DNA of 64,000 nt from Runella sp. CRIBMP. Its GTDB lineage: Bacteria > Bacteroidota > Bacteroidia > Cytophagales > Spirosomataceae. Position numbers and translations under genes: made by a program. Shown in pieces: positions 24,277-55,320 of the stretch. The stretch covers positions 248,001 through 312,000 of the forward strand of contig NZ_JAAAKZ010000003.1 of the NCBI RefSeq assembly GCF_009905605.1. Reading direction: 5' to 3'. Each line of letters begins with the position of its first letter. Position 1 is the first letter of the stretch. The notes under the pieces are model-generated. The model was not told where the DNA came from. It ran no database searches and saw nothing but the letters and a program-made list of their open reading frames with translations.

Positions 24277-24294
24277 GCTCAAACCTTGTACCAA
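24277..24294 (-). promoter_or_regulatory. Predicted sigma-54-type promoter, site D
   Basis: On the minus strand TTGGTAC, five bases later TTTGA: GG (-24) and G (-13) are 12 bases apart as in sigma-54 promoters. The predicted start point lies about 36 bp before the ATG at 24231. The -12 GC is replaced by GA, as at the three sister sites. Confidence 0.55.
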
Positions 24295-24348
24295 ACCCTA
24301 AATGTGGCTGATTAACAGTGTTTTGTGTGTGGACAAAAAATGAATAAT

Positions 24349-24385
24349 TGTCCGAATATGGACACCCTTTGTTCGTTGATGGACA
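24349..24385. promoter_or_regulatory. Tandem palindromic upstream sites, site D
   Basis: TGTCC-GAATAT-GGACA at 24349-24364, and a second copy TGTTC-GTTGAT-GGACA at 24370-24385, 21 bp on. The spacing TGT-N10-ACA equals that of NifA-type enhancer sites. The centre of the first palindrome is 65 bp from the -24 GG. An 11-bp inverted repeat (ACACCCTTTGT at 24362, ACAAAGGGTGT at 24390) overlaps them and may also end transcription from permease copy 3. Confidence 0.65.
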
Positions 24386-24433
24386 GCGGACAAAGGGTGT
24401 AAATTCAATAGAGCGGAGAATATAATCGTTTTA

Positions 24434-26785
24434 TTATTCTGAACGGAGTGCTTTGACGGGATTGGCAATGGCCGAGCGGTACGTTTGAAGGCCGATGGTC
24501 AGGCCACCGATAAAAAACAATAGCGCAAGGCAAGGGCCAAAGGTTTCAATGCCGATAGAAACATGGTACGAAAAATTGAGTAAAATAGCCATGCCCGCGA
24601 GGTATCCCAACGGAATCGCAATGGCCGACGCAATGAGCAGCAAACGCACAAAATCCCAGGATAGGCTCCAAATAATTTGGTGAACAGCGGCCCCCATTAC
24701 TTTCCGGATACCCACTTCTTTGGTGCGGGTTTCGGTGTTATAGGTCACCATCCCCAGTAAACCCATGCAGGCAATGGAAAAAGCAATGGCCGTCAAAACA
24801 CCCAGAAAATTATTATCATCGTCGTGAGAATGACGATCCAGAAGGTAGTCGTTGTACCACTGCCCAGCAAACGGTTCGTAAGGATACAGTTGTTTCCAGA
24901 CTTTCTCAATGGCGGCAATGGTAGTAGTAGAGCCTGCCGTTATGGTTACATTCAAAAATCGAAATTGCGCGGGTTGATACTGAAGCATCAATGGTTTTAG
25001 GGCCCACACAAAACTGGCATAATTGAAATTTTTCACCACCCCCGCAACACTGACTTCGCGGTTATCGGTCAGTAAAATTGTTTTTCCAATGGCCTCTTTG
25101 GCCGTTCCCAAACCGAAGCCTTTGAGCGCTTCTTCGTTGATAATGACCTGGTTTTTAGAGGCGTCGGTAGGCTTTAAATTCTCTCCTGCCAACAGCTTTA
25201 ACCCCAAAGCAGGTATCAACTCATGGTTGATAGAGAAATAATCAATCAGGGTTGAATCGTTTTTGTCGCGTTGGCGATACGCCCATTGGTTATCGGGATG
25301 GGAGCCAAAAAGAGCAGAAGTGGCCGCCACGTGTGCTACGCCTGCCTGTTGGTCGATGGCGCTGGCGAGTTTTTCGTAGGGTTGGTCGGGCAGGAGCGGA
25401 ATCGTCAAAACTTGTTGGCGCACAAAACCATAATCTCCTTCTGCCATGTAGGTTTGCTGACGATCTAGTACATACAGCGTAATCATGGCTAACAAAGACA
25501 CCGCAAATTGCACCACAATCAGCGATTTTCGCAACGAAATCCCCCGAATAACCTTCAGGCCAGTGTGGCTGCGGAGTACTTGAGCGGGTTCAAAATTGGA
25601 AAGAATACGGGCAGGAACCCATCCTGCCAACAGGCCCGCTACAATGCTGAAAACCACAAACAACAGACCCGTTTCCCAGCCCCATTTCACGCCGCCGATG
25701 AGCCAACGCTGCACAAATACCATGGGTTCTACCATTTTCAGCCCTACAAAAGCCAACGCTAATCCTAGTAAAGACAAAATCACCGACTCAGCCATAAACT
25801 GTGCCATCACTTGCCAGCGCAGCCCGCCGACTACTTTGCGAATGCCCACCTCCCGCGCTCGGCTCAGCGAACGGGCCAGTGTAAGGTTGATGTAATTGAA
25901 AACAGCCAGTAAAAGGGTCAGTAAACCGACGCCCATTTCCGTGGCCAATTTGCCGTAGGTCGGTTCGTAGGTGCCGCGTATCAACTCTTCATGCGCGGGC
26001 GCAATGGCCGATAGCGCCTGAGCGCGGAAGTGGTAGGAATTAATTTTAGTATTTTGAATAATTTTGGTTGTACGGGCCGCCACTGATGCTAGACTTTTCT
26101 CGAATGTCTCCTGCGTTATACCTGGCTTGAGCAGAATGTAAGTGTAGCCTTCCTGATGATTTTTCCAGTCGATTAGGGCTTCGCTTTTCAGGCTTTGGGC
26201 CGATAGCAGCATGTCAAACTTTTGGTGTGACCTTCCCAGCGTGGTATTGTCAATGATGCCAGTCACGGTAAATGCCCCAGCTCCATCATATTGAATCACT
26301 TTTCCGATTGGGTTGGCTTTTCCGAAAAACTTCTCGGCCATACTCTTGGTAAGAACCGCCGTTTGAGGCGCAGTCGCCGCGGTTCCTGAAATAATCGGGT
26401 AACCAAATACCCTAAAAAAATCTGCATCTACCCAAAAGGTCATGGGTTGGAGGCGTTTGCGGCCGTCGTCAAACTCGCCATAAGCCCGAATAAAATGCGT
26501 GGCACCTTCCACGAAGTCATAGTCTTTTTTTAGTACATCGGCTAGCGGCAGCGGTGCTGTGGCAAAAGCCATGCGGTCGTTGTTTTTGCTGATTACATCT
26601 GTCAATAGCCGATACGTGCGCTCGGGATGAGGATGGAAATTGTCGTAATCAAAGGAGCCTTTGATGTCAATCAGCGCCAATAGGCAAATCATCATTCCCG
26701 ACGCCAGCCCAAAGATGTTGATAAAAGAAAACAGCTTGTATTTTCGAAGATTACGAAAGGCGATTTTGAAGTAGTTGTAGAGCAT
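24434..26785 (-). CDS. Duplicated FtsX/MacB-type permease, copy 3
   Basis: 783 residues, the shortest of the thirteen; the periplasmic domains are reduced. First coupling motif RAREVGIRKVVGGLRWQV, second TRTKEVGIRKVMGAAVHQI; C-terminus PVKALRSE. The start MLYNYFKIAFRNLRKYK matches the family. It has its own -24/-12 promoter and paired palindromes (site C) 46-151 bp before its ATG, and the next gene downstream has its own site D, so it appears to be a single-gene unit. The second periplasmic domain (LFGSHPDNQWAYRQRDKND) is unusual among the copies. Confidence 0.92.
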   Translation of the reverse strand: MLYNYFKIAFRNLRKYKLFSFINIFGLASGMMICLLALIDIKGSFDYDNFHPHPERTYRLLTDVISKNNDRMAFATAPLPLADVLKKDYDFVEGATHFIRAYGEFDDGRKRLQPMTFWVDADFFRVFGYPIISGTAATAPQTAVLTKSMAEKFFGKANPIGKVIQYDGAGAFTVTGIIDNTTLGRSHQKFDMLLSAQSLKSEALIDWKNHQEGYTYILLKPGITQETFEKSLASVAARTTKIIQNTKINSYHFRAQALSAIAPAHEELIRGTYEPTYGKLATEMGVGLLTLLLAVFNYINLTLARSLSRAREVGIRKVVGGLRWQVMAQFMAESVILSLLGLALAFVGLKMVEPMVFVQRWLIGGVKWGWETGLLFVVFSIVAGLLAGWVPARILSNFEPAQVLRSHTGLKVIRGISLRKSLIVVQFAVSLLAMITLYVLDRQQTYMAEGDYGFVRQQVLTIPLLPDQPYEKLASAIDQQAGVAHVAATSALFGSHPDNQWAYRQRDKNDSTLIDYFSINHELIPALGLKLLAGENLKPTDASKNQVIINEEALKGFGLGTAKEAIGKTILLTDNREVSVAGVVKNFNYASFVWALKPLMLQYQPAQFRFLNVTITAGSTTTIAAIEKVWKQLYPYEPFAGQWYNDYLLDRHSHDDDNNFLGVLTAIAFSIACMGLLGMVTYNTETRTKEVGIRKVMGAAVHQIIWSLSWDFVRLLLIASAIAIPLGYLAGMAILLNFSYHVSIGIETFGPCLALLFFIGGLTIGLQTYRSAIANPVKALRSE

Positions 26786-26830
26786 ATCGGGTAACTGCTA
26801 AATGAATTTTTCTGATTACATCTTTTATTT

Positions 26831-26848
26831 GCTCAAACCCCATACCAA
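26831..26848 (-). promoter_or_regulatory. Predicted sigma-54-type promoter, site C
   Basis: Minus strand TTGGTAT, five bases, TTTGA, with the GG-to-G distance of 12. The predicted start point is about 36 bp before the ATG of permease copy 3 at 26785. Nearly the same 18 bases as site D. Confidence 0.55.
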
Positions 26849-26900: not shown

Positions 26901-26936
26901 TGTCCGATTTTGGACATGCTTGTGCGGTTACGGACA
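26901..26936. promoter_or_regulatory. Tandem palindromic upstream sites, site C
   Basis: TGTCC-GATTTT-GGACA at 26901-26916 and TGTGC-GGTTAC-GGACA at 26921-26936, 20 bp apart. The first is centred 63 bp from the -24 GG of site C. They occupy the gap between the PA14-OmpA gene stop and permease copy 3. Confidence 0.65.
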
Positions 26937-27984: not shown

Positions 27985-28101
27985 GCTGTTTTCTTAAAGG
28001 CTGCGTGTCGTTCTGACTAAACGAAAATAACACAACTTTCAGAAATGACGAAACGAGAAATGATGAGCGGTGGCTGTGAGTTTTGGGAAATGAGGGTAGC
28101 G

Positions 28102-29304: not shown

Positions 29305-29313
29305 TGGACTCAC

Positions 29314-29814: not shown

Positions 29815-29943
29815 GAAGTGCAAAAAGGTTATACGATTAAAGGGTATCTGCTAAAGGCAATTTAATCATAAACCCTCACACCTAGCGAATCAGCGTGTTT
29901 ATGTTGCGCTAAAATCCCACGATTTGGGGGAGGTTTTAGGCGG

Positions 29944-32385
29944 CTATTCTGATTTTAATGACTTCACGGGATTCATCAACGCGGCTTTGATACTCTGAAA
30001 ACTCACGGTCAAAACAGCGATTCCCATCGACAACACACCCGCCGTCAGAAATACCCACCATTCGATGTCGATGCGGTAGGCAAAGTTTTGGAGCCATCTA
30101 TCCACGGCATACCACGCAATGGGAGATGCGATGACTATCGCAATCAGTACCAACTTGATGAAATCTTTGGAGAGCAGCGTTGTGATACTCAACACCGAAG
30201 CCCCCAGCACTTTTCGAATACCGATTTCTTTGGTGCGCTGCTGAATCACGTAGATAGCCAAGCCCAGCAAACCCATGCAGGCAATGAAAATGGCCAATAA
30301 AGAAAATACTCCAAAAATACGTTGCGATACCTGCTCCGATTGGTACAGGGCATTCCAATCGGAATCTAAAAAGGAATAATGAAACGGCTGCTCGGGTTGG
30401 TAGCGTTTCCAAATGCTTTCCATTTGACTGACCAACGGCTTGGGGTCTTGCGACTTGACCCGCACCACAATTTCATTGTTAAATCGCCTGATTAAGCGGT
30501 CGTTAAGGATAAACAAAGGGACGATTTTTTCGTGCAATGAACTGAAATGGAAGTTTTTAACCACTCCCACTATCGTATAAAAAACGGGTGGGCCGTCCTG
30601 TTGCTCAAAATTGTCGGGGCTGATGATTTGCTTGCCTATGGGGTCGGTTAGGCCTAGTTTGGTGACGGCTTCTTCGTTGAGAATGACCGATACGGAGTCG
30701 TTGAATGTACGCTCAAACGCTCTGCCAGCCAGCATGGTCATGCGCATGGTTTGTAGATATTGTTCATCCACGAGCGTACCTCGTCCTGTCACACTTTCGT
30801 TATCGCCATTTTTGCGGAAGGTGATTCCAAAAAAGCCTTGTTTTTCGCCAGGCGTTGACGAGGTTCCTCCTACGCTTTCCACCCCCGAAATTTGCTCCAC
30901 TTCCCGCTTAAAGGTCTCGGTTTTGTTCCCTAGAAAACCAACGCCTTGTAGTTTGATGATGGATTCTTTGGTAAAACCGAGTTCTTTTTCCTGCAAATAG
31001 TTCAACTGACTGTACACGATGATGGTGCCGATAATGAGAATGATGGAGATGGAAAATTGAAAAACCACCAGACCATTGCGCAGCCAATAGCCTTGACGAG
31101 TGGATAAAAATTTGCCCTTTAGAACCTTAATCGGCTCAAACGCCGACAGCACCCCCGCTGGATAACTTCCCGCCAGCAACCCCACAAAAACGGCCAATGC
31201 TGGTAAGAACGGCAGTAAAGACCAATTGAGAAAATAGCCGAGAGCCAATTGCTTACCTGCCAGATTGTTGAAAGAAGGAAGAAACAACGCTACCAAACCA
31301 ACGGAAACCAAAAAACTGAACAGGCTTAGCAAAACCGATTCGGTCAAAAACTGCGCCGCCAATTGCCCTTTTGTCGAGCCCAGGGCTTTGCGAATGCCTA
31401 CTTCGCGGGCGCGCTCAGACGACCGCGCCGTGGCCAAATTCATAAAATTGATGCACGCTATCAGCAAAATAAACAGCGCTATGACCGAAAATAAATAAAC
31501 CAGCGTGCGGCTACCGTTGGGTTGTAGTTCTGCTTCTATGTTGGAGTCAAGATGAATGTTGCGGATGGGTTGTAAGAAATAGAAATAGCCGTTTCCTGCT
31601 TTTACGTAATCTTTGTAAGAAACCCCGAAATTGCGCTCAACTTCCCCGGCAGCGTATTTTTCGACCACCTTCGGAAACTTCGCTTCCACGGCGGCGGCCT
31701 GGGTATGCGGTTTCAATAACAGATACGTATAGGCTGAAAAACCAATGTGGTTAATTTGGTCGGCCGGTCGTAAGTTGACTGTAGAAGCCAGAAAATCAAA
31801 GGTAAAATGCGCATTGGTGGGTACATCTTGGCAAACCCCAGATATTTCCAGTTTCGGTCCCTGAACGAGTTCGACGAATTTTCCGATGGGACTCACTGTA
31901 CCGAATAAACGCCGTGCGGTGCGTTGGGTTAACACGACCGTATTGGGCCGAGATAGAACTTTGGTCGGTGCGCCTTCGAGGAGGGGAATCTGAAATACTT
32001 GAAAAAAGGCCGAATCAGCAAAAAGAAAAGCGCGCTCTTCGAGGGTTTTGTTGTTATGACGTAGGAGCGTGGCGCCTTCTCCGTTAAAATTGAAGACTCG
32101 AATCGATTGCTCTATTTCGGGGATTTCCTTGCGAACCGACTGCGCATAAGACGCGGGTATGATGGCGTATTTGGTACTGCGGTCGGGGTATTTGCGTTCC
32201 AACGCCATGCGATAAATGCGCTCGCCCTGCGGCCAAAAACGGTCAAAATTCAGTTCGTCGGCCACGTACAGCACAATCAGCATACAGCAGGTCATGCCGA
32301 TGGAAAGGCCCGTAACGTTAATGAACGTATTCGTCTTGTTTTTTAACAAATTACGAAGGGCGATCTTGAAATAGTTTTGCAGCAT
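29944..32385 (-). CDS. Duplicated FtsX/MacB-type permease, copy 4
   Basis: 813 residues. First coupling motif RAREVGIRKALGSTKGQL, second QRTKEIGIRKVLGASVLSI; C-terminus PVKSLKSE. The start MLQNYFKIALRNLLKNK is the family start. It is the last of the five permeases of the second run (copies 8-4), 49 bp after copy 5, and is followed by the ankyrin-like and propeller genes. The final 60-80 bases of the gene are almost the same as in copies 7, 9 and 10, while the periplasmic domains (LNFDRFWPQGERIYRMALER) are clearly different. No internal promoter of the -24/-12 kind is seen before it. Confidence 0.92.
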   Translation of the reverse strand: MLQNYFKIALRNLLKNKTNTFINVTGLSIGMTCCMLIVLYVADELNFDRFWPQGERIYRMALERKYPDRSTKYAIIPASYAQSVRKEIPEIEQSIRVFNFNGEGATLLRHNNKTLEERAFLFADSAFFQVFQIPLLEGAPTKVLSRPNTVVLTQRTARRLFGTVSPIGKFVELVQGPKLEISGVCQDVPTNAHFTFDFLASTVNLRPADQINHIGFSAYTYLLLKPHTQAAAVEAKFPKVVEKYAAGEVERNFGVSYKDYVKAGNGYFYFLQPIRNIHLDSNIEAELQPNGSRTLVYLFSVIALFILLIACINFMNLATARSSERAREVGIRKALGSTKGQLAAQFLTESVLLSLFSFLVSVGLVALFLPSFNNLAGKQLALGYFLNWSLLPFLPALAVFVGLLAGSYPAGVLSAFEPIKVLKGKFLSTRQGYWLRNGLVVFQFSISIILIIGTIIVYSQLNYLQEKELGFTKESIIKLQGVGFLGNKTETFKREVEQISGVESVGGTSSTPGEKQGFFGITFRKNGDNESVTGRGTLVDEQYLQTMRMTMLAGRAFERTFNDSVSVILNEEAVTKLGLTDPIGKQIISPDNFEQQDGPPVFYTIVGVVKNFHFSSLHEKIVPLFILNDRLIRRFNNEIVVRVKSQDPKPLVSQMESIWKRYQPEQPFHYSFLDSDWNALYQSEQVSQRIFGVFSLLAIFIACMGLLGLAIYVIQQRTKEIGIRKVLGASVLSITTLLSKDFIKLVLIAIVIASPIAWYAVDRWLQNFAYRIDIEWWVFLTAGVLSMGIAVLTVSFQSIKAALMNPVKSLKSE

Positions 32386-32403
32386 GGGTTTTGGTTTTAA
32401 AAG

Positions 32404-32432
32404 GTAGAGGCGGAGGCAAGCCCCGCCCCTAC
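32404..32432. repeat. GTAGGGG-family palindrome, 29 bp
   Basis: GTAGAGGCGG and CCGCCCCTAC arms with one mismatch, two bases after the stop of permease copy 5 on the minus strand. Same family as the other GTAGGGG elements in this window. Confidence 0.6.
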
Positions 32433-32434
32433 GG

Positions 32435-34870: not shown

Positions 34871-34924
34871 GATTTTAGGTTTTCAATATATGATGAACTA
34901 CCTGCCTTAAGGGTTACACTTACA

Positions 34925-37315: not shown

Positions 37316-37335
37316 GGCTTTGGGTTATTAATTGA

Positions 37336-37355
37336 TAGGGGCGGCCCCGCCCCTA
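37336..37355. repeat. GTAGGGG-family palindrome, 20 bp
   Basis: TAGGGGCGG and CCGCCCCTA are perfect 9-base arms around two bases, between permease copies 6 and 7 and 3 bp from the stop of copy 7. Confidence 0.6.
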
Positions 37356-37358
37356 GGG

Positions 37359-39776: not shown

Positions 39777-39825
39777 AATTTTTATGTAGGAAAAGAGGAA
39801 ATACAGAAAAAGAATCTGGAGTAGC

Positions 39826-39857
39826 GGAACACGGAAAACGTACGTTCTCCGTGTTCC
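39826..39857. repeat. ACACGGAG-family palindrome (family II)
   Basis: A 32-bp near-perfect palindrome: GGAACACGGA... pairs with ...TCCGTGTTCC, with a single mismatched pair and centre CGTACG. It lies between permease copies 8 and 7. A related larger element is at 42646. Confidence 0.65.
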
Positions 39858-39877
39858 CATTTCTCCTTGTTCCAATT

Positions 39878-42307: not shown

Positions 42308-42519
42308 GGTTTCGGGAGTTTGGGCGAGAAAAAAAGAAGGAAAGAACAAAGATTCATTCTTTCCTTCACAGGCTTTTGTTTACAGATTACACGATGGCGT
42401 GCATGGGTTGATTAAAATACAAAATTCGTTCATGGCTGTATGAAACGGAAAATGCTTTATAACGAGTGAGAGGTAGTAATTGGCTGTTAGTAACCTCTTT
42501 TAAATGCTTTCTAATCTTA

Positions 42520-42537
42520 TTTCCAAATCCGTACCAA
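42520..42537 (-). promoter_or_regulatory. Predicted sigma-54-type promoter, site B
   Basis: Minus strand TTGGTAC with GA 12 bases after GG. The T-run before GA is shifted by one base (TTTGGA instead of TTTGA), so this is the weakest of the four. It would drive permease copies 8-4. Distance to the first upstream palindrome is 63 bp. Confidence 0.45.
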
Positions 42538-42589: not shown

Positions 42590-42626
42590 TGTCCATAAAC
42601 GGACAAATTTAGTTCGTTTATGGACA
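42590..42626. promoter_or_regulatory. Tandem palindromic upstream sites, site B
   Basis: TGTCC-ATAAAC-GGACA at 42590-42605 and AGTTC-GTTTAT-GGACA at 42611-42626, 21 bp apart. The outer arms TGTCCATAAACG and CGTTTATGGACA are also a perfect 12-bp inverted repeat across the whole block, so the two palindromes are mirror images of each other. Confidence 0.65.
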
Positions 42627-45144: not shown

Positions 45145-45161
45145 GGCTTTTTGGGATTGTA

Positions 45162-47582
45162 TTATTCTGATTTCAACGATTTTACTGGATTCATTAATGC
45201 GGCTTTGATACTCTGAAAACTGACCGTCAGAAATGCGATGCCAACCGCCAGAAAGGCAGTAACGCCCAAAACCCACCATGGGAAGTCAATCCGGTACGCA
45301 AAGTCCTTGAGCCACAGGTGCATGGCATACCAAGCGACTGGCGAAGCGATGAGGAGAGCGATAACAACGAGTTTGATAAAATCAGTTGAAAGGAGCGTTA
45401 CGACACTGCCCACGCTGGCACCCAGCACTTTCCGGATGCCGATTTCTTTGGCACGTTGCTCGGCGGTGTAGGTGGCCAAAGCAAACAGGCCCAAACAGGA
45501 AATGAAAATCGAAATAGCCGCAAAAATCAAAAAGAGCGTGCGCTGCTTTTGTTCGGCTTGGTACTGGTCGTTGAAGCGTTCATCCAGGAAGGTATATTCA
45601 AACGGATTGTTTGGGAAAAACTGTTTCCACACCTTTTCAACGTGAGCAATGGCCGCGGGCAAATCACCCGTTTTGGCACTCACCGACAGCCGGCTGCGCC
45701 AGCTTGGACGCATAAACATCACCATCGGAGCAATTTTCTGGTGCAACGACTCAAAATGAAAATCTTTGACTACGCCCACGATTTGTCCGTCGAGGTTGCC
45801 ATATTTGAAGCGTTGCCCAATGGCTGCTTCGTTGTTTTTCCATCCGATTGCTTTTATGGCCGCTTCGTTGAGAATAAAATTGGTGGTATCGGCTCCAAAA
45901 GTCTGTGAAAAATCACGGCCAGCAGCGAGTTGTATTTCGTAAGTGTTGATAAAATCATAATCGGTCGAAAGTCCCTTGATTTCGGTGCTGACGGGCGTGG
46001 TGGTATCACCTTTGGCAACGGAAGCACCCATCGAATCCAACAGCCGAATCGTGGGTACGCGTGAAGAATGCGTCACGTTGGTGATGCCTGAATGTTGTTT
46101 GAGTTGTTGTTTCAGCGTTTCAAAATCAGCCGCCGAACTTCCCACGCCCGACATGACCAAAATCTGCTCTTTTTTATAGCCTGTCTTTTGGTTCATCATA
46201 AAATCAAGTTGATTGTAGACCACGCTCGTGCAAATAATTAAGGCGCAGGCAATGGCAAACTGCGTAATCACGAGTACTTGTCGCAGTTTTCCGTTTTTGA
46301 GGGCATTCACAATACTGCCTTTCAGTACTTGAATAGGCTGGTAGGCCGTCAGGAAAAAAGCGGGGTAACTTCCCGCCGCCAAACCCGTGACTAACACCGC
46401 TAAGGTGGCCGTCAATAGAAACTGTCCGCTGAATAATTGCGTGAAAGAGAGGCTTTTGTTGGTAAAATCATTGAGTGTAGGAAGCAACGCCGCCGTGGCA
46501 ATCAATGCCAATATTAACGCAAAAAACGTCACCAAAACAGATTCGCTCAAAAACTGCCCGATGAGCTGTTGACGAAAAGCACCCACTGCTTTTCGCATTC
46601 CTACTTCCTTGGCGCGGCTGGCCGAGCGGGCCGTGGCCAGATTCATGTAATTGATGCAGGCAATCAGCAAAATGAACAACGCAATGGCCGAGAAAATGTA
46701 GACGTATTTGATGTCACCGCCCGGCTCAATTTCGTAGTCTAAGTGTGAATAAAGGTGAATATCAGGGACTTTGGTCAGATGAAGTTCAGAGTATTTAGAG
46801 CCCTTGGTACCGTTGTGCTCGGGCAGGTGCTTGTCCTGAAACGCTGGAAAGGCTTTTTCTAGTTTGGCGGGGTCGTAGTTGATAGGGAGTAAAAAATAGG
46901 TAGCAAAGTTGTTGCCGCCCCAGTCGCTGCGTAAACCTTCGGCACCATATAGGCGTTCATCGTTGAGTGAAGCCGCCGAAAACAAAACGTTGGGGTGAAT
47001 GTGCGACTGGGCGGGAAGAGGTTCAAAAACCCCCGTAATACGAAAGTCATATTGGCTATCAAACTTGATGAGTTTTCCAATGGGGCTGACGTTCCCAAAG
47101 TATTTTTCAGCCATCGGTTTTGATAAAACTACCGTAAATGGGTCTGAAAGCGCTTTGTCAGGATTTCCTTCCAACAACTTGAAATCAAAGACTTTAAAGA
47201 TATTGTCTTCGGCAAAAAACAGTTTGTCTTCGGTGTATTTTTTCTCCAAATTATCGGGCAATCTCATTGTTCCCTCGTATTCTAACAGGCGTGTTATTTG
47301 TTCTACTTCGGGAAAATCATTCTTGAAATGCGGGAAAAAAGCGGGCGCTACCGTCCCCAGTCGCAGACTGATTTGGCCATCGGTCGACTTGAAATACCGC
47401 GAAACGCGGTAAATACGGTCGGCTTTTTGGTGAAAACGGTCGTAACCCAACTCATCCTGCACGTAGAGTGCAATGACCAAAAAACTCGTCAGTCCCAAAC
47501 TGAGACCTGCAATGTTGATAAACGTAAAACCTTTGTGTTTTAAAAGGCTACGAAAAGCGATTTTGAGGTAGTTGCGTAACAT
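45162..47582 (-). CDS. Duplicated FtsX/MacB-type permease, copy 10
   Basis: 806 residues from the ATG at 47582 (MLRNYLKIAFRSLLKHKG); the frame open from 47786 overlaps copy 11 and is rejected. First coupling motif RAKEVGMRKAVGAFRQQL, second EQRAKEIGIRKVLGASVGSV, shared almost exactly with copy 11; C-terminus PVKSLKSE. The phrase YVQDELGYDRFHQKADRIYR relates it to copies 5-7 of the other run. The gap to copy 9 is only 17 bp, the tightest in the array, which supports co-transcription. The gap to copy 11 holds a palindromic element. Confidence 0.92.
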   Translation of the reverse strand: MLRNYLKIAFRSLLKHKGFTFINIAGLSLGLTSFLVIALYVQDELGYDRFHQKADRIYRVSRYFKSTDGQISLRLGTVAPAFFPHFKNDFPEVEQITRLLEYEGTMRLPDNLEKKYTEDKLFFAEDNIFKVFDFKLLEGNPDKALSDPFTVVLSKPMAEKYFGNVSPIGKLIKFDSQYDFRITGVFEPLPAQSHIHPNVLFSAASLNDERLYGAEGLRSDWGGNNFATYFLLPINYDPAKLEKAFPAFQDKHLPEHNGTKGSKYSELHLTKVPDIHLYSHLDYEIEPGGDIKYVYIFSAIALFILLIACINYMNLATARSASRAKEVGMRKAVGAFRQQLIGQFLSESVLVTFFALILALIATAALLPTLNDFTNKSLSFTQLFSGQFLLTATLAVLVTGLAAGSYPAFFLTAYQPIQVLKGSIVNALKNGKLRQVLVITQFAIACALIICTSVVYNQLDFMMNQKTGYKKEQILVMSGVGSSAADFETLKQQLKQHSGITNVTHSSRVPTIRLLDSMGASVAKGDTTTPVSTEIKGLSTDYDFINTYEIQLAAGRDFSQTFGADTTNFILNEAAIKAIGWKNNEAAIGQRFKYGNLDGQIVGVVKDFHFESLHQKIAPMVMFMRPSWRSRLSVSAKTGDLPAAIAHVEKVWKQFFPNNPFEYTFLDERFNDQYQAEQKQRTLFLIFAAISIFISCLGLFALATYTAEQRAKEIGIRKVLGASVGSVVTLLSTDFIKLVVIALLIASPVAWYAMHLWLKDFAYRIDFPWWVLGVTAFLAVGIAFLTVSFQSIKAALMNPVKSLKSE

Positions 47583-47602
47583 GGTTTTTGGTTTTGAAAA
47601 GA

Positions 47603-47636
47603 ATAGGGTAAAGGCAGACGCGAGGCCTGCCCCTAC
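47603..47636. repeat. GTAGGGG-family palindrome, 34 bp
   Basis: Minus strand GTAGGGGCAGGCC... with the other arm ending CCCTAT. The stop codon TAG of permease copy 11 (47635-47633) is part of the element's first bases. It is nearly the same sequence as 52649-52676, in the opposite orientation. Confidence 0.65.
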
Positions 47637-50080
47637 TCCGTTTTTAATGACTTCACGGGATTGGCCAATGCGGCTTTGATACTGTGAAAACTGATGGTAA
47701 ATAGGGCAACGATTATCGCGACCAGTCCAGCCACCGCAAAAATCCACCATTGAATAGTGATACGATATGCAAAATTGGCCAGCCATTTATTTAAGAAAAA
47801 ATAAGCAATCGGACTGGCAATGAGAATGGCGACGAAGATGAGTTTGATAAAATCGGCCGACAAGAGCGTTACGACACTCCCTACGCTTGCGCCCAGCACT
47901 TTTCGGATGCCGATTTCTTTGGTACGCTGCCGCACCACAAACGCAATCATGCCAAATAAACCAAAACAGGATAAGAAAATAGCCACCCCCGCAAACAACC
48001 CAATGAGCGAGGCAAATCGACTTTCTTCCAGGTAGCTATCAGCGAGCGACTCATCCAAAAAGCGGTGTTCAAAAACTTTTTCTGGGAAAAATTCTTTCCA
48101 CGTTTTTTCTACATAAGCCAATGTCGCGGGTATATTGGTCGATGAAATTTTAATGCCAAATTGAGAAAATGTTCCTGGACTTACCTCCATAAATAAGGGG
48201 CTTAGGCCCGTACGAAGGTTTTCGGAGTGGAAATCATTGACCACTCCTACCACTCGGCCTTTTTTGCCACCGCGTTGGATATTCTGGCCAATAGCCGCCT
48301 GCGGTGACCCAAAATGAAGGGCTTTTACCGCTTCGTTGTTGATAATAAAACCCTCTAAATGATCAGTGCCGTAGGTTTTGTCAAAATCGCGACCTGCTAC
48401 TATTTTCAGGTCGAAGGTTTTAATGAAGTCATAGTCTACCGAGATACCCGGAAGAACCACGCCGTCTTCAATTCTGATTTTTTCGGTCGCTATGGGGTGA
48501 CGCGCACCGCCCATTCCCGGTAGGTTTGAAGCCAAGGTAACGGCTCTAATGGAAGGGTTTTGCAGTAATTTTTCCTCAAACGCATTGGTCCGATTGCGTA
48601 GTTGTTGGTCACCAGGCGAAAACAGGTTGTTCATATTTTGACTGAATAGCGGCACCGCCAGCGTCATGTCACGGTTGAATCCCAAGGGGCGGTTTTTCAA
48701 ATAGTCAATCTGCCGCAAGACAATTCCGGCACCTGCAAGCAGGGCGACCGCTACCGTGAATTGCAGGGTAATGAGACCTTGGGTGAGCCAATTGCCCCCT
48801 TGGCCTTTGCCGCTGGCTTTGCCACGAAAAATGTCGGTGGCTTTGAAGTGCGAAGCAAAAACGGCTGGGTATACCCCTGCTAATAAACAAGCCGTTGTAA
48901 ATACGCCAAAAAACAGCAAAAGCATTTCTGCATTTTGGACGAAAGAAAAGTCGGGTTTGCGACCAAAAAAGGTTTCCATTTGGCCCAAAAACTGTTTTGT
49001 GAGCAGTAGGGCCAGCAAAAAAGCAGGAAGACCCAATAAAAAAGTTTCCGTCAATAATTGACGGACGATTTGCCACGACTGGGAGCCAAGTACTTTTCGC
49101 ACGCCCACCTCTTTGGCGCGACTCAGCTGGGCGGCGGTGCTGAGATTGATGAAATTAACCACCGCAATGGCCAGAATGAGTACTCCAATCAGGGAGAATA
49201 TTTGTAAGAAATCGGGGTTGGCAGTAGGAACAACTTCGCCCTCCGCCGTTGATTGTAAGTGGATGTCGCGTACGGGAAAGAGGGCGAAGTTTTGTTTGTC
49301 CCGTACTTCTTTCATACCGTTTTTAAGGACAAAATCCTTGAAGCGTGCGTTGACAGAGGAGGCTTTTGCCCCTTTTTTTAGTAATACGTAGGTAGTGGCA
49401 TAAGAGGCCAATTTGTTGTTTTGGATAACGTCTAGGATGCCTTCACGGGCAAAATCAGGCTCCACATCGGCGATATTGCGAAAAGGAGCCAGAAAATCAA
49501 AGGTAAAGTGAGCGTTTTCGGGCAGGGCGCGTATCACGCCGCCCACCGTGAAAGGTCCCTGATTGGCGAGCATTAACTGTTTGCCCATACAATCTTCTTT
49601 GCCAAAAAAGCGCAGGGCCGTTTTGTCGGTCAATACAATCGAAAATGGAGTGTGTAGTGCGCGGTCAGGGTCGCCTTGGAGGGTTTCAAAGCCAAAGACC
49701 TGCATGGTGGTTGAATCGGCAAAAAAAGCATTTTCTACCTCAAAGCCCTGGTCTTGGCCCGGGACTCGTACGCTGATGCTACGGGGATAAAATCGCGTAG
49801 TTTGCTCAATTTCGGGGAAATAATTCGGGAGCATTGGCGCAAAAGGCGCTGGTGAGCGCGTGATGGTGAAAGCACTTCCCGTAAAATTAAGCTCATAATT
49901 CAGGCGATACAGCCGGTCGGTTGTAGGATAGTGGCGGTCGTAAGAGTGTTCAAAACGGTACCAGATGAACGTCAAAAAACAAAACGTCAGCCCCAATGTC
50001 AATCCTGCAAAATTGACGAAGGAAAAGAGTTTATTTTTACGAATTTGCCGAAAAGCAATGCTAATGTAATTGCGTAACAT
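47633..50080 (-). CDS. Duplicated FtsX/MacB-type permease, copy 11
   Basis: 815 residues, N-terminus MLRNYISIAFRQIRKNKLF. First coupling motif RAKEVGVRKVLGSQSWQI, second RQRTKEIGIRKVLGASVGSV; C-terminus PVKSLKTE. Its first periplasmic domain (YRFEHSYDRHYPTTDRLYRL) differs from the DELSYDRF type. The stop codon TAG is formed by the first bases of the palindromic repeat that follows, where most other copies end GAATAA. Position: 80 bp after copy 12, 50 bp before copy 10. Confidence 0.92.
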   Translation of the reverse strand: MLRNYISIAFRQIRKNKLFSFVNFAGLTLGLTFCFLTFIWYRFEHSYDRHYPTTDRLYRLNYELNFTGSAFTITRSPAPFAPMLPNYFPEIEQTTRFYPRSISVRVPGQDQGFEVENAFFADSTTMQVFGFETLQGDPDRALHTPFSIVLTDKTALRFFGKEDCMGKQLMLANQGPFTVGGVIRALPENAHFTFDFLAPFRNIADVEPDFAREGILDVIQNNKLASYATTYVLLKKGAKASSVNARFKDFVLKNGMKEVRDKQNFALFPVRDIHLQSTAEGEVVPTANPDFLQIFSLIGVLILAIAVVNFINLSTAAQLSRAKEVGVRKVLGSQSWQIVRQLLTETFLLGLPAFLLALLLTKQFLGQMETFFGRKPDFSFVQNAEMLLLFFGVFTTACLLAGVYPAVFASHFKATDIFRGKASGKGQGGNWLTQGLITLQFTVAVALLAGAGIVLRQIDYLKNRPLGFNRDMTLAVPLFSQNMNNLFSPGDQQLRNRTNAFEEKLLQNPSIRAVTLASNLPGMGGARHPIATEKIRIEDGVVLPGISVDYDFIKTFDLKIVAGRDFDKTYGTDHLEGFIINNEAVKALHFGSPQAAIGQNIQRGGKKGRVVGVVNDFHSENLRTGLSPLFMEVSPGTFSQFGIKISSTNIPATLAYVEKTWKEFFPEKVFEHRFLDESLADSYLEESRFASLIGLFAGVAIFLSCFGLFGMIAFVVRQRTKEIGIRKVLGASVGSVVTLLSADFIKLIFVAILIASPIAYFFLNKWLANFAYRITIQWWIFAVAGLVAIIVALFTISFHSIKAALANPVKSLKTE

Positions 50081-50092
50081 GGTTTTTTGTTT

Positions 50093-50158
50093 GGAACATG
50101 GAAAACGGAGTTATGGAAAATATACTTATTCTGTTTTTCTTGCTCCCGTTCTCCGAAA
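50093..50158. repeat. Possible degenerate family-II element
   Basis: GGAACATGGAAAACGGAG near 50093 and CCCGTTCTCCG near 50146 resemble the arms of the ACACGGAG family but pair poorly. It lies in the gap between permease copies 12 and 11. Confidence 0.35.
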
Positions 50159-50160
50159 TT

Positions 50161-52629
50161 TCACTCCGATTTCAAAGAGGTTACGGGATTCATTAAGGCG
50201 GCTTTAACTGCCTGAAAACTTACTGTGAAAATCGCAATCAATAACGCCATTGAGCCTGCCATGGCGTACATCCACCAACTGATGTCAATGGGATACGCAA
50301 AGCCTGTAAGCCACTGATTCATAGCCCACCACGCGGCAGGCGCGGCAATCACAAAAGAAACGATAACTAATTTGAGAAAGCCCTTCGACAGGAGCATAAT
50401 GATTTGACTGACAGAAGCTCCCATCACTTTGCGAATGCCTATTTCTTTGGTTTTGGTTTCGGCCATGTACGCAATCAATCCAAACAAACCTAAACAGGCA
50501 ATCAAAATGGCCAATCCCGTAAAAATGCCGAAGACAACGCCCGTGCGCTGTTCGCGTTGATATGCTTTGGCAAATGATTCATCTAAGAAAGTATAAGTAA
50601 ACGGAGTACCGGGTGCGTAGCTTTTCCACTGTTTCTCGATGGTTGTCAACACTTTGTCCACATTTTCGCCGCTGATACGGGCCAATACGTAAGAGTTGGA
50701 TTCTTGATACGTTTTGGAGGAATGGTGAAACAACGCAAAAGGCGACTTCACGTTATGAACCGTTTGAACATCAAAATCTTTCACAACGCCAATGACTTTA
50801 AAGCGCTGCATATCCCCGCCAGGATAATCTATGTATTTACCTATTGGGTCTTTCCAGCCAATTTTCTTCACTGCCGCTTCGTTCAAAATCACCGAAGTCG
50901 AATCGTTGAATTCTTTAGAGAAACCGCGGCCTTTCGTGAGTTTAATATCAAGAGTTTTGATAAACTCGTCGTCCGTCATAAACGAGAAAAGCGTCAGATC
51001 TTTGGCAATCTGCTTGTCGCCCGTATGTTGCTCAGGGAGATAGAAATCACCAAAACGGCCACTCAACGGCACGTTGGTACTGATGGAAGTGTGAATAATA
51101 TCGGGAATACGAGCAATTTCCTGTCGGAATGCTTCCTGACTTTGTTCCAGACGCTGTGCATTAGGAATGACAATGACGTTTTCTTTCGTGAGTCCCAAAT
51201 CTTTATTTTGTGTAAAACGCAGTTGTTGAAAGACTACAATCGTGCAGATAATCAACGCCGTAGAGACCGCAAATTGAAAAACGACTAAGCCATTTCGAAC
51301 CAACAAATGAGCAATGTTCGTTTTAATGGAATTCGTTTTTAATACTTCGATGGGTTTGAACGAAGTAAGATAAAAGGCAGGATAACTTCCCGCCAGCATG
51401 CCCGTAGTGAGCATGAGCAACACAATAAATAGGCCAAAACCACCTTCAAAAAGAGCGTTAAAAGCAATGGCCTTGCCTGAAATTTGATTGAACCACGGCA
51501 ATGATACAGAGATAATTACCAATGCCAAGACCGTAGCTAAAAAGCTATACAGCAGCGATTCGGATAAAAATTGTTTGATAAGGCTACTCTGAAAAGAACC
51601 GAGCGTCTTTCGTACGCCCACTTCTTTGGCACGCTTGAGCGAGCGGGCCGTCGATAGATTCATAAAATTGACGCAGGCCAGCAAAATGATAAAGATGGCA
51701 ATAATGCCAAACATATAGACCTGTTTAATGTCGCCTGTGTTTTCATAAAACACGCTTATTTTGCCCGAATGAAGATGAACATCTTGAAAAGGCTGTAGAA
51801 TAAACTCCCATTTGCCGCCTTTTTTAATGAATTCGTCATACGGTTGTCCAATTCGATTGAATGCATACTGGGCGTGTTTGCGAATCATGGCGGGAAATTT
51901 GGCTTCCAATTGCCGAATCCGCTCGGGGTTTTGAGCAATCTTATCATTGAGCACCACAAACGTACTCACGTTGAGCCATACCCAACTCCAGTCAAAATAA
52001 CTGACAACCTGAACACTGCGGATAGGAACCAAAAAATCGAATTGCATCGAAGACTGACTCGGAATATCCTTCAATACCGCCGTGACTTTCCGAGGGCGTT
52101 CGCCAAATAAAAGCACCTTATTGATAGGGTCGCTGTCGCCAAAGTATTTTTTAGCCATTGTTTCAGTAATCACCACATCGTCCGTGTTTTGCAGGCAGGT
52201 AGCCGCATTTCCTTTTTGGAGCGCAAAGTCGAAGATTTCCAGAAAGTTGGAGTCAACGGCCATGATGTTTTTCTCGTCGAAGAAATGGTCTTTTTTGCCA
52301 TTTTGCTCGTGGCTCACCACCAAATCCATGATTTGAAAGGTGCGCGTGTAAGTTTCTATTTCCGGAAATTCGGCCATCAACGTTTTGCCCGCCGGCGGTG
52401 GCGTATAACCTCCCAGCAACTCTGAGCCGCCAAAATTTCCGTCAATATTGACCTGATAGATTTGCGGTGTTTTCTTGAAAAAAGTATCAAAATGTAGTTC
52501 GTCCTTGATAAACAGTACAATCAAAAGACACACCGCCATTCCTACTGCCAACCCAGCGATATTGATAAAGGAAAGAACCTTGTTGTTGACAAGGTTACGG
52601 ATGGCGATTTTGAGATAGTTGCGTATCAT
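50161..52629 (-). CDS. Duplicated FtsX/MacB-type permease, copy 12
   Basis: 822 residues, the longest of the copies after start correction; N-terminus MIRNYLKIAIRNLVNNKVL. First coupling motif RAKEVGVRKTLGSFQSSL, second ETKTKEIGIRKVMGASVSQI; C-terminus PVTSLKSE. The first periplasmic domain has IKDELHFDTFFKKTPQIYQV. It is second in the first five-gene run. The 141-bp gap to copy 13 contains a composite palindromic element of 125 bp that could separate or modulate expression. Confidence 0.92.
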   Translation of the reverse strand: MIRNYLKIAIRNLVNNKVLSFINIAGLAVGMAVCLLIVLFIKDELHFDTFFKKTPQIYQVNIDGNFGGSELLGGYTPPPAGKTLMAEFPEIETYTRTFQIMDLVVSHEQNGKKDHFFDEKNIMAVDSNFLEIFDFALQKGNAATCLQNTDDVVITETMAKKYFGDSDPINKVLLFGERPRKVTAVLKDIPSQSSMQFDFLVPIRSVQVVSYFDWSWVWLNVSTFVVLNDKIAQNPERIRQLEAKFPAMIRKHAQYAFNRIGQPYDEFIKKGGKWEFILQPFQDVHLHSGKISVFYENTGDIKQVYMFGIIAIFIILLACVNFMNLSTARSLKRAKEVGVRKTLGSFQSSLIKQFLSESLLYSFLATVLALVIISVSLPWFNQISGKAIAFNALFEGGFGLFIVLLMLTTGMLAGSYPAFYLTSFKPIEVLKTNSIKTNIAHLLVRNGLVVFQFAVSTALIICTIVVFQQLRFTQNKDLGLTKENVIVIPNAQRLEQSQEAFRQEIARIPDIIHTSISTNVPLSGRFGDFYLPEQHTGDKQIAKDLTLFSFMTDDEFIKTLDIKLTKGRGFSKEFNDSTSVILNEAAVKKIGWKDPIGKYIDYPGGDMQRFKVIGVVKDFDVQTVHNVKSPFALFHHSSKTYQESNSYVLARISGENVDKVLTTIEKQWKSYAPGTPFTYTFLDESFAKAYQREQRTGVVFGIFTGLAILIACLGLFGLIAYMAETKTKEIGIRKVMGASVSQIIMLLSKGFLKLVIVSFVIAAPAAWWAMNQWLTGFAYPIDISWWMYAMAGSMALLIAIFTVSFQAVKAALMNPVTSLKSE

Positions 52630-52648
52630 GATATTTTAAGTTTAAACC

Positions 52649-52773
52649 GTAGGGGCAGGCCTCGCGTCTGCCCTATCCACTGCCACCGACTATGAGAAAT
52701 TTGAGCCTAATCAAAGTTAATATGTGTTTGCCCAGATCAGCATTTTCGTTGTATCCAGGCAAACGTGCCCCTA
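52649..52773. repeat. Composite GTAGGGG element, 125 bp, MITE-like
   Basis: GTAGGGGCA at 52649-52657 and TGCCCCTAC at 52765-52773 are perfect 9-bp terminal inverted repeats. The left end also contains a complete short palindrome (52649-52676). It has no open frame of note. It provides the TAG stop codon of permease copy 13 (52773-52771). The form suggests a small non-autonomous mobile element. Confidence 0.6.
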
Positions 52774-55179
52774 CTCCGATTTCAAAGATTTTACGGGATT
52801 CATCAGGGCGGCTCGGATGGATTGCGCACTGACCGTTAATAAAGCAATACCGACGGCAACAACTCCCGCCAATCCAAATACCCACCATTGGATGTCCATG
52901 CGGTAGACAAAGTCTTTGAGCCACTCGTTCATGGCATACCACGCGATAGGCGATGCGATGACGATGGCAATCAACACGAGTTTTAAGAAATCTTTTGACA
53001 ACAACGCCGTGATTCCCAACACCGAAGCGCCCAACACTTTCCGAATGCCGATTTCCTTGGTGCGTTGGGCGGTAGTGTATGCCACCAAACCGAACAATCC
53101 CAAACAGGCCAATAAAATAGCCAAGCCCGCAAACACCGTAAACACGCGGCTGATGCGGTTTTCGTTGGCGTACATTTGGCGGTATTCTTCATCAAGGAAG
53201 GTGTAGCTGAATGGACGATGAGGCGCAAGCGTTTTCCATTTGCTTTCCAGAAAAGACAGCGTTTGCGCAATATTATTTCCCGTCATTTTAACCAACAATA
53301 CGTTGCCCCAAGTGACTGGAAAAATACCCAAAGAACCGATGGGTTGTTTCATCGAAGCAAAGTGAAAATCGCGAAAAACGCCCTTGATTTCTCCCAAACG
53401 ACCGCCCAATTTGATTTTTTTTGCAACGGCTTCCTGCGGCTTCCAGCCTAGTTGTTTGGCCAGCGTTTCGTTGATTAAAAAGCGATAATCGCTCTTGGAA
53501 TCATCTTCGGCGTTGAGCAGTTGCATGTCGGTCTCGGTAAGGTCGCTGCCCGCAATGATCTTTATATCTAAGGTTTTGGCCAAATCCTCATCGCCAGGAA
53601 ATGCCGTAATCATCTTCTGAACGGGATTGGACGTGCCTACGGTTTCCACACCGTCGCCCCATTGAATGAACGTGGGTGTTTCGTACGCCAGTGCTATATT
53701 TTTGACGTTGGGGTTTTGCGTAAATTCATTTTTCAGCGCCTTCAGATTTTTGTTGATGCGCCCATCCGTGGGTAGAGCAATAATGTGCTGTTTATCGTAG
53801 CCTAGTTTTTTGTTTTGGATATAATTCATCTGATTGTTGACCACGAGTGTACTCACAATCAGAAAAACGGAAATGATGAACTGTAACACAATCAAGGATT
53901 TACGCAACAACAACCCCGAAGCCGTATTTTTAAACGCGCCTTTCAGTACTTTGATGGGTTGGAAGTAGGATAAAGCCAAAGCAGGATAACTTCCCGCTAC
54001 AAAACTGACCAATAACCAAATGCCCGTCAATGACAGGATTCCAACGGGTTGAAAGAGAACGTTGAATGAAAGTTGGCGTTGAGAAAGTTGATTAAACAAC
54101 GGCAAAAACGTCGCTGCCGCCGCTAAACTCAGCGCCAACGCAATCAAGGTAAGCACCAACGACTCGCTCAAAAACTGCCAAAATAACTGCCCGCGCAAGG
54201 CTCCCAGTACTTTTCTCATGCCCACTTCCTTGGCGCGCTCGGTGGCGCGGGCGGTGGTGAGGTTCATGTAGTTGGTGGCGGCAATGACCAAAATAAGCAA
54301 GGCAATAACCAGAAAAATATAGACGTAGGTGATGTCGCCAGCGGCGCTCATGCCGCCTTGGGCTTCAGAATAGAGGTGAACATCGGCGAGCGGTTCGAGC
54401 AGATAAGTTACAAAATTGTTGCCAGTCATTTCGGTTTCGGCCGACTGTTGGCGCATGTACGAGGCGATTTTTGACTGAAGCGCAGCTATCGAAGTAGAAG
54501 GGCGTAGCAGTAAATAAGTGACGTAATTGGCGTTCCACCACGTCTCGGTTTTAGCGGCCGAAAGTGAGTGGAGAGACGCCACAAAGTCAAATTGTAATTG
54601 AGAATTGGAGGGAGCATCTTCGGCAATGCCTGTCACTAAATAGTCCACTTTGTCTTCTAACCGAATGATTTTGCCCACGGGTTCTTCTGTTCCAAAGTAT
54701 TTTTGGGCGGTTGAGGCCGTCAAAACCACCTGATTTGGAGCGTTGAGTACTGTTTTGGGGTTTCCTTTCAATAATTTGAACGAAAAGAAATCAAAGAAAG
54801 ATGAGTCGGCCCAGCAAAAGCGAGGCTCATTAAACAACAAGTCACCTTGTTTGACCACGACGGTACTTTGAGAGTGGGCAGGGTCGGAGACCCGAACGAA
54901 GCCTTCTACCTCGGGAAAGTCGCGCCGAAACGCTGGCCCGACTTTGGTGCCCGTCATAACGGTTTTGTTGGAGGTTCCTTCAATGCTGTAATGCATCACC
55001 GCCCGTGCAATGCGGAAACCGTTTTGGTGAAATTGGTCAAAACTCAGTTCGTGTTGGATATACAAGCCAATCAGCAGACAGGCCGTCAGGCCCGCCGCCA
55101 AACCAAATACATTGATGAATGTAAATGCCTTGTGTTTCCACAAGTTGCGCAATGTGGTTTTGAGATAATTCCGTATCAT
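52771..55179 (-). CDS. Duplicated FtsX/MacB-type permease, copy 13
   Basis: 802 residues from the ATG at 55179 (MIRNYLKTTLRNLWKHK); 13 upstream residues from 55218 are unlike the family. First coupling motif RAKEVGMRKVLGALRGQL near 318, second AQRTKEIGIRKVLGASVLGI near 711; C-terminus PVKSLKSE. The hallmark YIQHELSFDQFHQNGFRIAR follows the first helix. It is the first gene of the first five-permease run. The predicted leader is about 25 bases, downstream of the site A promoter and palindromes. Confidence 0.92.
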   Translation of the reverse strand: MIRNYLKTTLRNLWKHKAFTFINVFGLAAGLTACLLIGLYIQHELSFDQFHQNGFRIARAVMHYSIEGTSNKTVMTGTKVGPAFRRDFPEVEGFVRVSDPAHSQSTVVVKQGDLLFNEPRFCWADSSFFDFFSFKLLKGNPKTVLNAPNQVVLTASTAQKYFGTEEPVGKIIRLEDKVDYLVTGIAEDAPSNSQLQFDFVASLHSLSAAKTETWWNANYVTYLLLRPSTSIAALQSKIASYMRQQSAETEMTGNNFVTYLLEPLADVHLYSEAQGGMSAAGDITYVYIFLVIALLILVIAATNYMNLTTARATERAKEVGMRKVLGALRGQLFWQFLSESLVLTLIALALSLAAAATFLPLFNQLSQRQLSFNVLFQPVGILSLTGIWLLVSFVAGSYPALALSYFQPIKVLKGAFKNTASGLLLRKSLIVLQFIISVFLIVSTLVVNNQMNYIQNKKLGYDKQHIIALPTDGRINKNLKALKNEFTQNPNVKNIALAYETPTFIQWGDGVETVGTSNPVQKMITAFPGDEDLAKTLDIKIIAGSDLTETDMQLLNAEDDSKSDYRFLINETLAKQLGWKPQEAVAKKIKLGGRLGEIKGVFRDFHFASMKQPIGSLGIFPVTWGNVLLVKMTGNNIAQTLSFLESKWKTLAPHRPFSYTFLDEEYRQMYANENRISRVFTVFAGLAILLACLGLFGLVAYTTAQRTKEIGIRKVLGASVLGITALLSKDFLKLVLIAIVIASPIAWYAMNEWLKDFVYRMDIQWWVFGLAGVVAVGIALLTVSAQSIRAALMNPVKSLKSE

Positions 55180-55212
55180 AACAAAAGAAGAAGAAAAGGC
55201 CTGTTGAGAATT

Positions 55213-55230
55213 GTTCAAATGATGTACCAG
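55213..55230 (-). promoter_or_regulatory. Predicted sigma-54-type promoter, site A
   Basis: Minus strand CTGGTAC, five bases, TTTGA, with the 12-base GG-to-G distance. The start codon of permease copy 13 is 34 bp downstream of the element. Distance to the first upstream palindrome is 63 bp, the same as at sites B and C. Confidence 0.55.
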
Positions 55231-55282
55231 AAGAGTAAGTAGTTGATAAATAAAGATTTGTGTTTTTAGTTTCTAAAAAAAA

Positions 55283-55320
55283 TGTCCGCAAACGGACAGG
55301 TTTAGCTTCGTTTGCGGACA
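55283..55320. promoter_or_regulatory. Tandem palindromic upstream sites, site A
   Basis: TGTCC-GCAAAC-GGACA at 55283-55298 and GCTTC-GTTTGC-GGACA at 55305-55320. As at site B, the outer arms TGTCCGCAAACG and CGTTTGCGGACA form a perfect 12-bp inverted repeat over the block. It lies in the 315-bp gap shared with the divergent kinase gene. Confidence 0.65.

Follow-up and report, generated by a model that had tools for sequence, protein, structure and literature searches.

What controls the many MacB-like permease genes carried by a 64,000-nucleotide stretch of a Runella genome? This stretch, hereafter the window, corresponds to C23:248001-312000 of a 7.13-Mb assembly, whose contigs are denoted C23, C55, C1, and so on. 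A sequence-only reading of the window had proposed that four copies of a block, made of the palindrome TGTCC-N6-GGACA and a downstream -24/-12-like element, place these genes under sigma-54 and an enhancer-binding activator. Our analysis supports this interpretation, and from sequence evidence we judge it very probable that the four blocks belong to a single regulon and act as sigma-54 promoters with tandem enhancers.

The window contains exactly four copies of the palindrome (positions 24349, 26901, 42590, and 55283), compared to a mean of 0.03 and a maximum of 1 in 100 shuffled sequences. On the minus strand, each copy has a -24/-12-like element downstream of it, in which GA is located 12 bases past GG, and all four blocks conform to the sigma-54 promoter pattern TGGYAY-N5-TTG(C/A) with GG 12 bases ahead of the -12 G, the element at 42.6 kb (TGGTACGGATTTGGA) having one mismatch relative to TGGYAYN5TTG. 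These layouts lie at 55.2, 42.5, 26.8, and 24.3 kb as originally claimed, and re-measurement of the distance between palindrome centre and -24 GG returned exactly the 63, 63, 63, and 65 bp given before. A second, imperfect copy of the palindrome was detected 20-22 bp upstream in all four blocks, with 1, 1, 2, and 3 mismatches out of 10 positions. The parts of the blocks are as follows.

55283..55298, minus strand, enhancer palindrome TGTCC-N6-GGACA of block 1
55305..55320, minus strand, second imperfect enhancer site of block 1, 22 bp upstream, 3/10 mismatches
55216..55229, minus strand, -24/-12 element of block 1, TGGTACATCATTTG
42590..42605, minus strand, enhancer palindrome of block 2
42611..42626, minus strand, second site of block 2, 21 bp upstream, 2/10 mismatches
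42523..42536, minus strand, -24/-12 element of block 2, TGGTACGGATTTGG, one mismatch
26901..26916, minus strand, enhancer palindrome of block 3
26921..26936, minus strand, second site of block 3, 20 bp upstream, 1/10 mismatches
26834..26847, minus strand, -24/-12 element of block 3, TGGTATGGGGTTTG
24349..24364, minus strand, enhancer palindrome of block 4
24370..24385, minus strand, second site of block 4, 21 bp upstream, 1/10 mismatches
24280..24293, minus strand, -24/-12 element of block 4, TGGTACAAGGTTTG

Genome-wide, the palindrome was found at 12 places in 7.13 Mb, compared to 4 for the reversed pattern, a rarity that speaks against random occurrence, one of the weaknesses the sequence-only reading had named for itself; nine of the 12 are located within 71 kb, in C23:272349-333538 and 343343-343358. 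Another named weakness, absence of rpoN, is ruled out by the presence of two rpoN genes (PF04552 at C19 and C1, 187 and 175 bits), and a gene for a different sigma-54 activator (C1:265246) is found about 0.6 kb away from the rpoN gene at C1:264151. The genome-wide search for palindromes joined to -24/-12 elements, which had been suggested as a check, identified 11 blocks, counted as distinct promoters with at most one mismatch per part, mostly at the C23 permease cluster: 10 are on C23:272280-361176 (89 kb) and one at C55:20943-21015, while the reversed sequence of the 135-kb C23 region contained none. At all 10 C23 blocks, a further copy of the site lies 20-22 bp upstream and deviates at 0-3 of 10 positions, and the C55 block has the TGTCC half alone there. 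The palindrome-to-TGG gap in this genome is 43, 52-55, 64, or 66 bp. The proposed regulon thus extends past the window, and the C23 blocks outside it are listed below.

C23:320136, block before a PadR gene and a permease gene
C23:330296, block before three permease genes
C23:333517, block before a PadR gene and a permease gene
C23:343358, block before an HlyD-like adaptor, an ATP-binding cassette (ABC) ATPase, and three permease genes
C23:343364, block on the opposite strand, facing a response regulator and a histidine kinase gene
C23:361093, block facing a second ABC ATPase gene

Two palindromes, at C29:4232 and C44:214246, were treated as chance matches, as the strict pattern finds a -24/-12 element near them on neither strand. 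Two further matches were not counted: one on the plus strand at 274921 (gap 72), whose promoter-like word is antisense within the coding sequence 26959-27984, and one with two mismatches at 285618, which is inside a permease gene. In the block at 333517, a perfect terminator-like hairpin (L007) lies inside the DNA proposed to loop, and similar hairpins between enhancer and -24 element were seen in L197, L202, L237, L238, and L245; as a common feature they were rejected, since a stem of at least 8 is present in just 5 of 73 distinct gaps.

Which protein could act at these blocks? The window was said to encode no enhancer-binding protein, and this is correct; one is encoded 31.5 kb past its right end on the same contig, at C23:343522-344892. 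This protein, 99% identical to its counterpart in Runella aurantiaca YX9, combines a receiver domain (PF00072), a sigma-54 activation domain (PF00158), and HTH_8 (PF02954), all above cut-off, and retains Asp54 and Lys109. Its gene and the downstream histidine kinase gene are divergent from the operon encoding the HlyD-like adaptor, the ABC ATPase, and permeases, with blocks facing both ways. The kinase contains PAS and HATPase domains, with His228 in LRHEIMNS, and N-terminal to PAS a sequence and hydropathy scan revealed PDEQ (residues 27-30) between two hydrophobic stretches. This arrangement leaves no room for an outer sensor domain, so that sensing would take place in the membrane or through a transporter, in the manner of Bce-type modules. 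The likeness to NifA sites suggested earlier holds for the TGT-N10-ACA spacing, which is not specific, and fails for the protein: NifA as the activator was rejected, given 322 bits against the NifA cut-off of 528.85 and a receiver domain of the response-regulator type instead.

A search for an NtrC-type regulator beside another FtsX cluster, also suggested as a check, was successful: a paralogous regulator at C1:484325 is located next to an FtsX pair. Its recognition helix (LGLTRSALYRRLEKY) is near-identical to that of the C23 regulator (LGLSRQALYRRMEKY), and its operon region contains TGTTC-N6-GAACA at the same 53-bp gap (C1:477803-477872, L037:2803-2872). For the five other sigma-54 activators of the genome, recognition helices are different or none was read. 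These data raise the alternative that the blocks are sigma-54 enhancers read by a different activator or by several, such as the C1 paralog, with cross-talk between TGTCC and TGTTC sites. Besides the shared helix, one tandem site of the cluster reads TGTTC-N6-GAACA (330317), and in family f12 the block precedes operons with a C1-type regulator (L262, L263). However, no regulator other than the C23 one is situated inside the C23 cluster with a block on either side, and the 90 genomes that encode other activators and lack its ortholog have no block, with 3 exceptions; we consider this alternative quite unlikely.

The single C23 regulator as activator of one regulon is consistent with the distribution of the block in relatives. 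With the strict pattern (palindrome-promoter gap of 38-68 bp), the block was detected in 103 of 222 genomes of the family, at 357 sites (4 hits for the reversed-pattern control), and in 109 of 390 genomes sampled from the order (again 4 control hits); counted by eye, the latter split into 44 of 79 in the family and 65 of 311 outside it, and family f12 accounts for 54 of 78. In a phylum sample, 14 of 392 genomes had the block, 7 of them outside the order; beyond the order, this amounts to 7 of 377 genomes (8 hits) compared to 2 control hits in one genome, and given this rarity we make no claim there. When orthologs of the activator (E <= 1e-170) were scored in the 222 family genomes, 100 had both ortholog and block, 32 the ortholog only, 3 the block only, and 87 neither (Fisher 3e-30), with all 38 genomes of genus g2 assigned a single value, their best. 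The association is similar at E cut-offs of 1e-160 and 1e-150, and the contrast is repeated within genera, with 12 genomes having both and 1 neither in g1, 8 and 3 in g9, and 1 and 9 in g23. At all seven named Runella regulator loci, blocks on both strands flank the regulator gene.

The genes behind blocks in relatives were examined in a sample of 70 blocks from 17 genomes: 40 from 13 genomes outside genus g33, probably Spirosoma (every listed site, apart from one of the three in G162), together with 30 of the 47 in four g33 genomes. Outside g33, the nearest matching open reading frame (ORF), 9-285 bp on, encodes a permease in 20 cases, PadR in 11, an adaptor in 5, and an ATPase in 4, thus accounting for all 40 blocks, and each of the 11 PadR genes is followed by a permease gene. 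Within g33, 12 of the 30 blocks precede permease, PadR, adaptor, or ATPase genes, and 4 precede one secreted-looking ORF and then a permease.

If an activator bound at the palindrome contacts the promoter over a short distance, is the distance between them constrained? Among 150 listed sites of the 357, site lengths are 73 (n = 2), 81-85 (n = 100), or 92-95 (n = 48), with none between although 68-98 bp were allowed, giving Rayleigh lengths of 0.81 for a 10.5-bp period and 0.82 for an 11-bp period. For 40 genus-length pairs the Rayleigh length at 10.5 bp is 0.82, a value matched by none of 20,000 uniform draws, and further lengths taken by eye from other listings, including those of the order and phylum samples, fall in the same classes (72-73, 81-85, and 92-96). 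The initial statement that the spacing is what is kept therefore needs to be modified: the intervening sequence does differ among the window blocks, but the spacing is not one value and instead falls in classes that lie whole helical turns apart, a phasing signature of unusual clarity. A second site was present 19-23 bp upstream in 55 of the 70 sampled blocks, with 15 lacking one at that threshold, and at the control offsets of 29-33 and 39-43 bp it was found in 0 of 70. Palindrome positions 6 and 11, which are outside the search pattern, are R in 70/70 and Y in 69/70 blocks, respectively; the refined palindrome is TGTCC-R-N4-Y-GGACA. The longer spacing is used in 13 of 17 PadR units compared to 4 of 53 others (Fisher 9e-8, in statistics that ignore descent), and 49 of the 53 non-PadR units have the shorter one.

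These features bear on two other explanations. The palindrome might be the operator of another factor, e.g., the PadR proteins of the cluster, situated near sigma-54 promoters by chance: PadR genes lie directly behind two cluster blocks and 17 of 70 sampled blocks, and TGT...ACA palindromes fit many dimeric regulators. Yet 53 of the 70 have no adjoining PadR gene, and helical phasing to the -24/-12 element, tandem sites, blocks flanking the activator gene, and co-occurrence with the activator are all predictions of an enhancer, making the operator explanation very unlikely in our estimate. Alternatively, the blocks could be leftovers of duplication, copied along with the permease genes and devoid of a regulatory role. 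The permeases are indeed tandem paralogs, and neighbouring blocks could share descent; however, whole-turn spacing is kept across at least 13 genera while the sequence between enhancer and promoter differs, and unrelated genes are also found behind blocks, namely those for the adaptor, ATPase, PadR, and regulator and for the candidate small RNA described below. We regard this explanation as extremely improbable.

A number of observations weigh against a single sigma-54 regulon governed by the C23 regulator. The family-wide association is confounded by descent, the blocks of related genomes not being independent, and the ortholog E-value threshold was picked after viewing the table. Of the 132 genomes with an ortholog, 32 have no strict block (24 in g8), and three other genomes have the block without an ortholog (G045, G127, and G205, which are 88, 66, and 84% complete). 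Only 12 of 20 regulator loci scanned have a block, and at four Fibrella/Fibrivirga regulator loci no block was found within 10 kb and the regulator is not beside permeases. In g33, 14 of 30 blocks face other genes, some of which encode DUF4097 proteins, a protein with a beta-lactamase fold, or members of a family of secreted-looking proteins of ~124 aa; from this we infer that the regulon has grown in this genus. The thirteenth permease gene of the window (17736-20147) has no block, and no palindrome with fewer than four mismatches is found in the 963-bp gap upstream. Finally, the sigma-54 contact loop of the activator is GAFTDA rather than GAFTGA; the same loop is read in 28 of 30 ortholog loci (2 were unread by the pattern) and in the C1 paralog, whereas the genome's remaining five activators read GAFTGA or GSFTGA. 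In a paper on Desulfovibrio, GAFTDA is among the loop variants held to keep activity (PMC4641369).

The units proposed to be under control of the four window blocks are as follows.

42718..55218, minus strand, five MacB_PCD/FtsX permease ORFs (52771, 50161, 47633, 45162, and 42718), proposed unit of block 1
29944..42349, minus strand, five permease ORFs (39878, 37359, 34925, 32435, and 29944) behind block 2, with gaps of 2-54 bp
24434..26785, minus strand, permease ORF (783 aa) behind block 3
21111..24231, minus strand, two short ORFs without a family and permease ORF 21111-23525 (804 aa), proposed unit of block 4

In the unit of block 1, the Pfam search was run on ORF 52771-55218 only, whose listed 5' end is at the promoter, so that the true start is probably further in. 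Assignment to block 4 requires read-through of the short ORFs 23929-24231 and 23628-23924, neither of which has a Pfam match at the curated cut-off. If transcription reads through, the statement that the four blocks would control twelve of the thirteen permeases holds, with five behind the block at 55.3 kb, five behind that at 42.6 kb, and one each behind those at 26.9 and 24.3 kb. Between two of the permease units, 26959-29823 contains inserted ORFs for a PA14-OmpA protein, a PQQ-type beta-propeller, and a weak ankyrin-repeat match, and a histidine kinase (His_kinase family) and a LytTR response regulator are encoded at 55495-57284, divergent from the 55.3-kb block.

ORF calling over C23:228001-363000 together with a permease profile revealed 21 permease ORFs of ~780-890 aa at 265-342 kb of C23, 20 of which are behind a block, given read-through. 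The nine tested with Pfam or NCBIfam show two MacB_PCD and two FtsX stretches or a full-length alignment to the ADOP model. Scores against named models are below cut-off: three permeases reach 288.4, 274.4, and 233.2 bits with the ADOP model TIGR03434 (cut-off 622.3), and darobactin-type exporter scores are 279.8 of 375 for DarD, 203.6 of 450 for DarC, and 113-131 of 700 for DarB. The genome has 57 FtsX stretches in all, and the genome-wide palindrome search found no exact palindrome with a block at FtsX genes outside the cluster other than those listed.

Does the regulon extend beyond protein-coding genes? The C55 block has no ORF ahead; about 12 bp past its -12 word begins an 89-nt stretch ending in a strong hairpin and T6, which is a candidate small RNA under this block.

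C55:20843-20931, minus strand, predicted sigma-54-driven non-coding transcript of ~89 nt with terminator (L033, L266)

The stretch was found in 5 of 13 Runella genomes (100, 98, 98, 88, and 79% identity), in each case with palindrome and -24/-12 element ahead, and was not found in the other 8. An Rfam search of the stretch gave no match near the gathering score, the best being RF02449 with 24.5 of 60 bits. Its core, AGTTTAGGTTAAGAAA, positioned directly 5' of a terminator, also follows coding sequences at one more place in the Runella genome (C12) and in 14 genomes from other genera; these coding sequences mostly specify an outer-membrane-barrel-like protein, and the palindrome is absent there. 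With one mismatch allowed, the word TTTAGGTTAAGAAA is no commoner in the Runella genome than its reversed control (9 versus 16), and hence exact copies alone were used. The core can be read as a terminator-proximal mRNA element that, in Runella, would also form a stand-alone transcript of the regulon.

Altogether, these data suggest the following mechanism. The kinase, with two membrane segments joined by a link of about four residues and no outer sensor, would take its input either within the membrane or from a transporter and phosphorylate the regulator at Asp54. Regulator dimers on two sites 21 bp apart might then assemble an AAA+ ring, which would loop the short DNA and open sigma-54 polymerase at -24/-12. 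Since the loop is short, enhancer and promoter would be held on a fixed helical face, and the spacing could shift by whole turns alone, placing GG at a distance of about 54, 63-66, or 74-76 bp from the centre of the palindrome. Induction would be joint: the regulator pair itself would be switched on together with as many as 20 of the 21 MacB-like permeases, two PadR regulators, two ATPases, and the adaptor. The inducing condition is probably envelope damage or toxic amphiphiles. A fuller version, which we put forward tentatively as a possibility that may well not hold, is a need-sensing circuit: the sensor-less kinase would monitor the MacB-like transporters, and one sigma-54 activator acting on phase-locked enhancers would induce ~20 permeases sharing one or two ATPases, plus a sigma-54-driven small RNA, with the promoter class set by DNA turns (PadR units being one turn longer).

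Permease arrays, abundant in these bacteria and lacking a known signal, thereby gain a candidate regulator, a predicted binding site, and a gene list. It is predicted that removing one gene pair silences ~20 transporters, so that their shared function is directly testable, and a candidate small RNA is indicated that would be controlled in the same way. With more than 350 natural sites varying by whole turns, the face-of-helix rules of sigma-54 activation become readable from genomes; if the interpretation is true, nature has performed an enhancer-phasing experiment many times over and rewired a Bce-like module to sigma-54.

The proposed system resembles the NtrC-family type Ia in its receiver/AAA+/HTH_8 architecture, kinase partner, tandem upstream palindromes, and -24/-12 promoters. 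It differs by its MacB-like permease array targets, the GAFTDA loop, and short whole-turn enhancer distances, and no NCBIfam equivalog cut-off was reached among the 25 matches listed. Bce-type modules pair an FtsX-type transporter with a kinase that lacks an outer sensor domain. FtsX-type permeases, an ATPase, and a two-membrane-segment kinase with almost no loop are likewise found here, but the output is a sigma-54 activator rather than an OmpR-type regulator, one pair serves ~20 permeases, and an adaptor protein is present. Similarity to ADOP permeases with PadR (TIGR03434 and TIGR03433) is evident by the full-length ADOP alignment, PadR beside two permeases, and a perm_prefix_2 domain above cut-off in L029:5406-8057; the scores of 233-288 against 622.3 and the predicted control by sigma-54 blocks set the Runella proteins apart.

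A survey of Bacteroidia reported sigma-54 promoters to be enriched before FtsX-like/COG0577 permeases and called this the first evidence (PLoS One 2025, PMC12316311). The promoters described here likewise stand ahead of this permease family; unlike the present analysis, the accessible portion of the survey names no enhancer site or activator, and the strings "palindrom" and "upstream activat" are absent from its text. An earlier study linked sigma-54 with the exterior of the cell (Francke et al. 2011, PMC3162934), and its text contains no "Bacteroid", "permease", or "FtsX". Literature searches, which covered few subscription journals, for Runella, ADOP, PadR, or FtsX with sigma-54 (including Spirosoma, Dyadobacter, and Hymenobacter) and for the motif halves returned no description of the regulon. 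The class of mechanism is known, and the regulon, which appears to be new against the literature searched, is built from known parts.

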